NCBI GenBank assembly: GCA_937138415.1
Contig: CAKZPA010000003.1
Coordinates: forward strand, 23,897 to 87,896
Direction of reading: 5' to 3'
Origin: an uncultured Nitrospiraceae bacterium
Lineage (GTDB): Bacteria > Nitrospirota > Thermodesulfovibrionia > Thermodesulfovibrionales > SM23-35
DNA length: 64,000 nucleotides
The notes under the pieces are model-generated. The model was not told the origin of the DNA and searched no databases. It saw only the letters and a list, made by a program, of their open reading frames with translations. This document shows positions 39,462-41,787 of this stretch, piece by piece. Position 1 is the first letter of the stretch. Each line of letters starts with the position of its first letter. Position numbers and translations under genes: made by a program.

Positions 39462-39914
39462 GTGGATGAGACGGATATTTTCTACATGCGCGCTGCGCTT
39501 TCAGAAGCGGAGGCAGCGTACGCGGAGGGCGAAGTGCCCGTGGGCGCGATCTTGGTCAGCGGCGGTCGCGTCATTGCGAGGGCCCACAACGTCAAGGAGG
39601 CATCGGGAGATCCGACTGGCCACGCGGAACTCCTCGCCCTGAGAGCCGGCGCACGAGAGATCGGCAACTGGAGACTCTCGGATGCGACATTGTACGCGAC
39701 GAAGGAACCATGTATCATGTGTGCGGGAGCGATGGTGAATGCCCGGTTGGGGAAGCTCGTCTACGGCTGCAACGATGAAAAAGGAGGAGCCGTTGAGAGC
39801 CTCTACGCGTTGCTTTCGGATCGGAGGCTCAACCACCAAGTAGTGGTCGTATCTGGAATTCTCGAGGACGAATGCGCCGAGATACTGAAAAGATTTTTCC
39901 GCGAGAAAAGATAG
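39462..39914 (+). CDS. tadA: tRNA-specific adenosine deaminase
   Basis: GHAELLALRAGAREIGNWRLSDATLYATKEPCIMCAGAMVNARLGKLVYGCNDEKGGAVESLY; GTG start. Confidence 0.93.
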   Translation: MDETDIFYMRAALSEAEAAYAEGEVPVGAILVSGGRVIARAHNVKEASGDPTGHAELLALRAGAREIGNWRLSDATLYATKEPCIMCAGAMVNARLGKLVYGCNDEKGGAVESLYALLSDRRLNHQVVVVSGILEDECAEILKRFFREKR

Positions 39915-39920
39915 AGACGT

Positions 39921-40313
39921 TTGTTTAGGACCGAGTTATTCGAATTGAGGATGTATCCGTGGAGAGGTGCCAGAGTGGTTGAATGGGACGGTCTCGCTCG
40001 CCCCGGCGAGTCCGCCCGAGGCGGAAAAATCGTTGTGGGGGCTAAAGAGGGAGACGCCGATAAAGGGTTCACGTACGTACTCTGTTGTCACGATCGGAAA
40101 TGGTATATCGGTTCGACGAGAAATTTACAGAAGAGACTCGAAGCCCACAGAATGGGGCGCGTCAAAACGACGAAGCACCGCAGACCGGTTCGGTTGCTGT
40201 ATAGCGAAGAACATGGGAGCTTCCATGAAGCTCGCCGACGGGAGCTCTTCCTCAAGAGTGGAACGGGAAGAGATTGGCTTAAACAAATAGTGGAGAGGTG
40301 CCAGAGTGGTTGA
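39921..40313 (+). CDS. GIY-YIG nuclease-domain ORF, copy 1 (core domain starts near 40062)
   Basis: FTYVLCCHDRKWYIGSTRNLQKRLEAH...RRRELFLKSGTGRDWLK; upstream part reads through tRNA-derived DNA, so the true start is unclear. Confidence 0.7.
   Translation: MFRTELFELRMYPWRGARVVEWDGLARPGESARGGKIVVGAKEGDADKGFTYVLCCHDRKWYIGSTRNLQKRLEAHRMGRVKTTKHRRPVRLLYSEEHGSFHEARRRELFLKSGTGRDWLKQIVERCQSG
39961..40291 (+). mobile_element. 331-bp tRNA-Ser/GIY-YIG unit, copy 1
   Basis: 5' 36 nt of tRNA-Ser + 29-bp double hairpin + 17 nt of tRNA + GIY-YIG ORF; followed by an identical copy. Confidence 0.75.
39997..40025. repeat. 29-bp double hairpin, copy 1
   Basis: CTCGCC-CC-GGCGAG + TCCGCC-CGA-GGCGGA. Confidence 0.85.
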
Positions 40314-40622
40314 ATGGGACGGTCTCGCTCGCCCCGGCGAGTCCGCCCGAGGCGGAAAAATCGTTGTGGGGGCTAAAGAGGGAGACGCCGATAAAGGGTT
40401 CACGTACGTACTCTGTTGTCACGATCGGAAATGGTATATCGGTTCGACGAGAAATTTACAGAAGAGACTCGAAGCCCACAGAATGGGGCGCGTCAAAACG
40501 ACGAAGCACCGCAGACCGGTTCGGTTGCTGTATAGCGAAGAACATGGGAGCTTCCATGAAGCTCGCCGACGGGAGCTCTTCCTCAAGAGTGGAACGGGAA
40601 GAGATTGGCTTAAACAAATAGT
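40292..40622 (+). mobile_element. 331-bp tRNA-Ser/GIY-YIG unit, copy 2
   Basis: Same order and same encoded protein as copy 1; exact 331-nt offset of all landmarks. Confidence 0.75.
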
Positions 40623-40644
40623 GGAGAGGTGCCAGAGTGGTTGA
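40306..40644 (+). CDS. GIY-YIG nuclease-domain ORF, copy 2
   Basis: Translation identical to copy 1 over the shared region; ends VERCQSG, i.e. inside the 5' end of the next tRNA copy. Confidence 0.7.
   Translation: MVEWDGLARPGESARGGKIVVGAKEGDADKGFTYVLCCHDRKWYIGSTRNLQKRLEAHRMGRVKTTKHRRPVRLLYSEEHGSFHEARRRELFLKSGTGRDWLKQIVERCQSG
40328..40356. repeat. 29-bp double hairpin, copy 2
   Basis: Same sequence as 39997-40025. Confidence 0.85.
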
Positions 40645-40712
40645 ATGGGACGGTCTCGAAAATCGTTGTGGGGGCAACTCCACCCAGGGTTCGAATCCCT
40701 GCCTCTCCGCCA
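40623..40712 (+). tRNA. tRNA-Ser (anticodon CGA), complete with CCA
   Basis: Acceptor GGAGAGG/CCTCTCC, anticodon arm ACGGT-CTCGAAA-ATCGT, long variable arm, T-arm CAGGGTTCGAATCCCTG, GCCA. Confidence 0.9.
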
Positions 40713-40740
40713 CCTACTCGTCAATAGCGTCTCATCTCGT

Positions 40741-40835
40741 GGGATGGTCTCGCTCGCCCCGGCGAGTCCGCCCGAGGCGGAAAAATCGTTGTGGGGGCAA
40801 CTCCACCCAGGGTTCGAATCCCTGCCTCTCCGCCA
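40741..40835 (+). pseudogene. tRNA-Ser 3' fragment carrying the 29-bp hairpin insertion
   Basis: gggatggtctcg + hairpin + aaaatcgttgtgggggcaactccacccagggttcgaatccctgcctctccgcca; no 5' acceptor/D-arm. Confidence 0.8.
40753..40781. repeat. 29-bp double hairpin, copy 3
   Basis: Same sequence as 39997-40025. Confidence 0.85.
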
Positions 40836-40890
40836 CCTAATGCAGAACCAGTCTTTTCAACCTGCCCGCTGCTTCGTTCGCGAGGAAATC

Positions 40891-41787
40891 ATGCCGCCAG
40901 CGGGGAAGGAGACGATCCACATCCTGCTCATTCTGGATTGCCGTGAAGACTGCTGCCTCATGGAAGGAATGCTCCAGGATTCCGCGGGCATTCATTTCGA
41001 AATCGAGACAGTCCACTCCCTGACCGAAGGAACCGCCCGCCTCGCGGAGAAGGCCTTTCACGTCGTCATCCTCGATCTCGGCCTTCCCGAGAGCAGCGGC
41101 ATAGAGTCTCTCAAAAAGATTCTCGGGCACACACTCGAAGTCCCGATCGTCGTCCTCACCGGGCACGATGACGATGAACTCGGCGTTGCGGCGATCAAAG
41201 AAGGCGCACAGGACTATCTCTCGAAGGCGCAGCTCGATCGGAACACGCTCCTGCGTTCCATACGTTATTCGATCGAACGTCATCGGCTGCTGGCGGAGCT
41301 GCATCGTCAGTCTCTCGAGGATTACCTGACCGGCCTCAATAACAGGCGGGGCTTCTTTCTCCTCGCGCAGCAGCACGCGAAACTCGCAAAGCGGATGAAG
41401 CGTGCGCTGTTGATCATGATCGCAGACCTCGACGGCATGAAGAAGATCAACGATACCTTCGGCCATGAAGCGGGCGACAGGGCGCTGGTCGAAATAGCGA
41501 CCGTGCTGAAGAATACTTTTCGCGACGCGGATATCACCGCGAGAATCGGCGGCGATGAGTTCGCGGTGTGCATCATCGATGACGACACCTCCACGGCGGA
41601 TGTCGTCATCGCCCGACTGAACGACAACATACGTTCGGCCAATACCCGCGCGAAGCTACCTTATCGACTCTCGCTCAGCGTGGGCGTGGCCCGATTCGGT
41701 CCGGACGCCGAGACCACGTTCGACGAGATGCTCGCGCAGGCGGACGCTCTCATGTACGAAGAGAAGCGAAGCAAACGGCACGCGTGA
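40891..41787 (+). CDS. Response regulator with GGDEF diguanylate cyclase domain
   Basis: REC-like (VVILDLGLPESSGIESLKKI, VVLTGHDDDELG), DYLTGLNNRRGF, ARIGGDEFAVCI; start uncertain. Confidence 0.9.
   Translation: MPPAGKETIHILLILDCREDCCLMEGMLQDSAGIHFEIETVHSLTEGTARLAEKAFHVVILDLGLPESSGIESLKKILGHTLEVPIVVLTGHDDDELGVAAIKEGAQDYLSKAQLDRNTLLRSIRYSIERHRLLAELHRQSLEDYLTGLNNRRGFFLLAQQHAKLAKRMKRALLIMIADLDGMKKINDTFGHEAGDRALVEIATVLKNTFRDADITARIGGDEFAVCIIDDDTSTADVVIARLNDNIRSANTRAKLPYRLSLSVGVARFGPDAETTFDEMLAQADALMYEEKRSKRHA

Follow-up and report, generated by a model that had tools for sequence, protein, structure and literature searches.

The stretch of DNA analysed here (the window, 64,000 nucleotides in length) carries a compact locus that is made of a small nuclease gene and of whole and broken copies of one tRNA gene, all on the + strand. 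The locus follows tadA (39462..39914; NF008113, 175.9 bits), a host gene which is conserved at empty sites in other genera and serves as the synteny anchor of the tRNA-Ser(CGA) site. The intact tRNA-Ser(CGA) (40623..40712) is the sole tRNA gene in the window, recognised both by ARAGORN and by Rfam (RF00005, 53.8 bits), and it is flanked on its left by two identical tandem units of 331 bp (39959..40620; the identity runs 369 nt) with one GIY-YIG open reading frame each, and on its right by a plugged 3′ piece of the same tRNA. Unit 1 has a dead tRNA 5′ half (39961..39996, tRNA nt 1-36, identical to 40623-40658 of the intact gene), followed by a 29-bp double hairpin that separates G35 from A36 in the anticodon loop (39997..40025), by tRNA nt 37-53 (AAAATCGTTGTGGGGGC; 40026..40042), and by the core of a GIY-YIG nuclease (40062..40313; PF01541, E = 5.3e-15) in an open frame of 39921-40313. 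The GTG at 40035, inside the tRNA piece, is an in-frame candidate start for this nuclease, and the stop codon falls within the next tRNA 5′ half. Unit 2 has the same order, with a 5′ half (40292..40327) and tRNA nt 37-53 (40357..40373) that match the intact tRNA, the exact 29-mer between them (40328..40356), and a nuclease core identical to the first (40393..40644) whose stop codon lies within the intact tRNA gene. On the right side, a 13-nt remnant of the tRNA 5′ side (TGGGATGGTCTCG; 40740..40752, sequence match, family D2) precedes the third double hairpin (40753..40781) and a dead 3′ half with nt 37-90 (40782..40835, sequence match, family D4). The mechanically called frame of a response-regulator/GGDEF gene (40645-41787) also starts inside the intact tRNA and crosses the dead 3′ half, its true start being probably further downstream, near 40891. 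Such cases warn annotators that predicted proteins can read into tRNA genes. A terminator search at the locus gave nothing terminator-like on the + strand, and a promoter search gave nothing promoter-like at the double hairpin.

The double hairpins are copies of one 29-mer (CTCGCCCCGGCGAGTCCGCCCGAGGCGGA), of which none is expected by chance (0 in 100 shuffles), and the repeats at 40328 and 40753 that an earlier note on this DNA had listed are both exact. Its placement of the insert within the CGA anticodon is borne out by an unambiguous junction, in which the interrupted copies read GGTCTCG, the 29 bp and AAAATCG where the intact gene reads GGTCTCGAAAATCG. The same note had described two perfect 6-bp hairpins; the adjacent pair stands, and outside the three 29-mers no two perfect 6-bp hairpins lie side by side anywhere in the 64-kb window (ten Markov-shuffled windows had a mean of 0.1 such pairs), but arm 1, whose 6-bp inverted repeats are 2 nt apart, forms a 5-bp stem with a 4-nt loop when folded. 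A genome-wide search with the half-motif TCCGCCCGAGGCGGA returned the three copies and one more on contig C36, within a related double hairpin without a tRNA, so that the motif, which the note had proposed to check for scatter away from tRNA and GIY-YIG genes, lies at the tRNA in three copies of its own genome and apart from any tRNA in one related copy. On the - strand of this contig (L008, G000:C36:24500), the double hairpin TCCACCTCGGTGGATCCGCCCGAGGCGGA carries CCTTG/CAAGG at its flanks and has no tRNA.

The insert had also been considered as a degenerate intron, and this suggestion fails. There are indeed three interruptions, but none affects a whole tRNA: two are in 5′ parts (copies 1 and 2, tRNA nt 1-53) and one is in a 3′ part (copy 3, 13 nt of the 5′ side and nt 37-90), and hence removal of the insert could not yield a tRNA from any of them. 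A tRNA intron of group I or archaeal type is ruled out, since each copy holds nt 1-53 or nt 37-90 only. In an Rfam scan, the intact tRNA was the sole match above threshold and no intron covariance model matched, even at E<=1. A role at the RNA level, either as an intron or with the transcribed dead halves and their hairpins regulating the nuclease or serving as its RNA antidote, is very improbable for similar reasons; the hairpins are kept by covariation and the open reading frame follows directly on the dead 5′ halves, which may supply its start codon, but no complete interrupted tRNA and no Rfam intron family is present, and loci of mirror form (see below) have the dead 3′ half downstream of the nuclease gene.

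The encoded protein has a GIY-YIG domain with conserved catalytic-type residues, which are invariant in 14 relatives, and the nearest solved sequences are the single-domain GIY-YIG proteins of the UPF0213 type (1zg2 and 1ywl; E 1e-6 and 4e-5). Its gene lies outside any intron or intein, as an open reading frame between tRNA pieces without an Rfam intron family. Of 18 such small genes, eight are located <=400 bp from a tRNA, compared with 0 of 12 UvrC genes (both in 12 genomes). A scan of the contigs of other genomes for the nuclease found one relative, in Patescibacteria, and viral contigs, scanned for a viral origin with a single nuclease protein of the Ser type, yielded no relative. The genome of the window encodes two more small GIY-YIG genes away from tRNAs (L001, 1100-2100; L002, 1100-2126), amid dense dispersed palindromes of the types GTCATTCCGG...CCGGAATCC and TCATCCTTCGAC...GTCGAAGGATGA, which suggests a broader association of GIY-YIG genes with palindromes.

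tRNA genes are favoured targets of insertion, usually by tyrosine integrases and at the 3′ end. Twelve relatives have conserved the arrangement of tadA followed by tRNA-Ser(CGA), and their flanks of 1.5 kb contain no such nuclease; within one genus the empty and the filled site can be compared directly. In G052 the tRNA is followed by native flank, whereas in G310 a nuclease gene, a double hairpin and a dead 3′ half lie between them; the upstream flanks of the two agree by 91.6% over 383 nt, and the downstream flanks by 86.4% over 400 nt, counted from the first base past the CCA of the dead half. Judged from these alignments, the element is an insertion at a tRNA gene. The 54-nt dead half of G310 equals the tRNA-Ser(CGA) of G023, a member of another family, at 54/54 positions, and differs from the intact tRNA of its own genome (49/54); for this reason the dead half may have arrived with the element, in what is a single case over a short sequence of 54 nt.

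The link between double hairpin and GIY-YIG element that the earlier note had proposed proved well founded, as it recurs in several genera. On tRNA-Ser, the architecture was found in G013, G008, G012, G310, G234, G379 and G286. The nuclease of G013, from the same family, is 69% identical; one contig of this genome again carries two units and a different one carries two plugged 3′ halves, and a second double hairpin lies in the T loop at TTCG^AATC. The tRNA-Ser(UGA) of G008 carries the element at the same anticodon position as in the window, and the tRNA-Ser(CGA) site of this genome is empty; G012 has kept the plugged half and the intact tRNA with a stub or relic of the nuclease, and G310 is of mirror form, in the order intact tRNA, nuclease, double hairpin and dead 3′ half. 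In G234, G379 and G286, a hairpin insert lies in the D loop of tRNA-Ser(UGA), at or ending at GGTTG^AAGG. The sequence TYGAA occurs in tRNA-Ser at exactly three places (nt 19, 34 and 69, in the D, anticodon and T loops), and double hairpins are found at all three, the anticodon site being exactly conserved across five genomes and two isoacceptors. A phylum-wide pattern search gave matches beyond the genome of the window (G000), G013, G012 and G310 that look like chance. That the tandem repeat is an artefact of assembly is scarcely credible: its two units show 100% identity across 331 bp and the contigs of G013 end in the same repeat, but the architecture occurs without tandem copies in relatives with few contigs (G020, G052, G027) and within single contigs of several other genomes.

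The same set consists of a GIY-YIG nuclease gene, an intact tRNA and dead tRNA halves in which hairpins plug or replace loops or arms; relatives carry it on tRNA-Ser(CGA), Ser(UGA), Ala, Asp and Asn, and a Patescibacteria genome has it on Ile/Cys. At the nuclease loci on Asn (own genome, contig C39), Ala and Asp, palindromes of a different sequence replace or interrupt arms of the dead tRNA pieces; the anticodon arm of Asp, for instance, is replaced by TCCCGATTCATCGGGA. The Asn locus (L005, 1100-2000 on G000:C39) is a second element of the same genome on tRNA-Asn(GTT), with a dead 5′ part with a palindrome, the intact tRNA, the GIY-YIG gene and a dead 3′ part with two palindromes in this order. 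Beside a GIY-YIG gene of the Patescibacteria genome (L107, G400:C14), double hairpins lie in the anticodon loop of a dead tRNA-Cys and in the D arm of a dead tRNA-Ile. At another locus (L123, G402), one GIY-YIG gene lies between two dead tRNA-Asp 3′ parts, in each of which palindromes replace the anticodon and T arms. All loci were read from draft genomes. Partial same-strand tRNA copies were present at 20 of the 22 nuclease-linked loci, a set that includes G012 with its nuclease relic only, and at one of 36 nuclease-free tRNA loci (a 37th control entry, the window's own locus, stands outside the 36); the sole control with such a copy, L130, has no nuclease or hairpin there by eye. Perfect hairpins of 4 bp or more were found in 28 of 31 inserts, with a combined p of 2.5e-28 against shuffles, a value which describes these inserts and is no unbiased test, because they were picked by eye.

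The double hairpins also form a repeat family in their own right. Across seven variants, in an alignment from which the loops were taken out by hand, 97.6% of stem cells pair and four pairs are changed on both sides, which was matched by none of 500 shuffles and by no slid register. Dispersed copies away from tRNAs occur in G013 (11), G310 (8) and G008 (2), with 0 in a reversed-pattern control, and therefore the double hairpins are not exclusive to the nuclease element. Several of these sit centrally in another palindrome; such insertion is strong for one repeat class and for the C36 copy and weak elsewhere, and as the sites are not independent, a general rule of insertion at palindrome centres is only suggestive. 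Y1_Tnp genes are encoded in these genomes, away from the window locus, and Y1 transposases could be the carrier of the double-hairpin repeat. One has to consider, then, that the element and the tRNA halves are real and the double hairpins passive hitch-hikers, independent repeats that enter any hairpin loop, perhaps moved by a Y1/RAYT-type transposase, and are merely tolerated by dead halves. This alternative deserves serious weight, although we think it rather unlikely: the dispersed copies without tRNA or nuclease, the palindrome-centred copies, for which REPs inserted in palindromes are a known precedent (PMC3733652), and the Y1_Tnp genes all fit it, but it does not account for an anticodon site conserved exactly in five genomes and two isoacceptors, nor for hairpins at nearly all dead copies, including those of unrelated sequence on Ala, Asn and Asp, and G000 has no further double hairpin of the CTCGCC type.

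With regard to the position of the double hairpin, which the earlier note had proposed as a possible recognition or excision signal, the comparative data favour a plug at TYG^AA in loops of the dead halves over the end of an excised element, since the hairpins lie inside the tRNA sequence and the borders of the units do not coincide with them. Drawing on the observed architecture, its recurrence, the empty and filled sites, the covariation in the stems and the places where the double hairpins sit, we lean, with moderate confidence, towards a free-standing element resembling a homing endonuclease, in which the tRNA halves would act as homology arms and mobile double hairpins would plug the TYG^AA sites of the dead halves. 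The nuclease would cut intact tRNA genes in their loops, and repair from a filled allele along the tRNA halves would copy in the nuclease gene and a spare half, with one intact tRNA retained. Hairpins in the dead halves would abolish the cut site and break the homology with the intact tRNA, so that the element is neither cut again nor looped out, and repeated break repair at the intact tRNA could give rise to tandem arrays like the pair of 331-bp units. The main weakness of this homing-like model is that the intact tRNA retains the supposed cut sites, and hence self-cutting must be tolerated or limited by the flanks. Further points against it are that the T loop of copy 3 is without a plug, that on Ala, Asn and Asp the hairpins stand in place of arms and sometimes lie away from TYGAA, and that double hairpins occur also without tRNA or nuclease (the 11 in G013). 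An additional and unlikely proposal is that the GIY-YIG protein itself recognises stem-loops, including single-stranded loops of tRNA genes, cuts at TYG^AA and drives the insertion or swapping of palindromes; if true, a hairpin-moving nuclease would represent structure-guided mobility, unlike both RAYT/REP and classical homing.

It is likewise improbable that the double hairpin is simply the nuclease's own substrate or binding site, a repeat of REP-like kind that the GIY-YIG protein mobilises. A Neisseria GIY-YIG family acts on single-stranded repeat targets, which would count in favour of this possibility; no confirmation of this lead was found in the open-access literature searched. The constant association with the nuclease gene and the covarying stems agree with it too, as does the lack of target-site duplication, which is also reported for the double-hairpin elements of Allomyces (PMC2800124). 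However, the hairpin sequences differ wholly between tRNA types that have related nucleases, and Y1 transposases are alternative agents.

On the homing-like reading, a roughly 300-bp element with a single small nuclease gene would occupy tRNA genes, keep one tRNA working and leave hairpin-marked half genes as footprints, and the tRNA-occupying element spans many genera and no fewer than two phyla. The element would also make it possible to test where some dispersed bacterial palindromes come from.

Among known systems, the best functional parallel is SegB of phage T6. SegB of T-even phages is a GIY-YIG nuclease that cuts within tRNA genes, and the tandem amplification that it drives in T6, by recombination, involves a tRNA-segB unit of 718 bp, compared with 331 bp for the unit here (PMC13096335). 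Both genes are free-standing beside tRNA genes and outside introns, and the motif RAWTSGAAC reported for SegB resembles the T-loop sequence GATTCGAAC, whereas SegB belongs to phage genomes and the consulted part of the same paper describes no hairpin-plugged dead tRNA halves (PMC13096335). The double-hairpin elements of Allomyces mtDNA, organellar GC clusters and RHEs are short, GC-rich, adjacent hairpins that are dispersed and conserved in their stems, and intron endonucleases have been proposed to aid the mobility of such elements in yeast mtDNA (PMC4478555, PMC2800124). They share with our repeats two adjacent stem-loops, compensatory stem changes, dispersed copies and no evident target-site duplication, while ours are found in a bacterial genome (2.1 Mb), in the loops of dead tRNA halves and beside a GIY-YIG gene. 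REP/BIME palindromes associated with RAYT are 20-40 bp long, often dimers, and some are inside other palindromes (PMC3733652); they differ in that the flanks of the double-hairpin copies listed here have no constant GTAG or CGTC end tag and that a GIY-YIG gene, not a Y1 transposase, stands at these loci. The parts are thus of known kinds, and what appears new is the combination of a chromosomal tRNA-linked GIY-YIG gene with a preserved tRNA and hairpin-plugged dead halves, a description of which was not found in the open-access literature, most subscription papers lying outside the search. The element thereby offers a bacterial counterpart to the SegB-driven amplification of tRNA genes.
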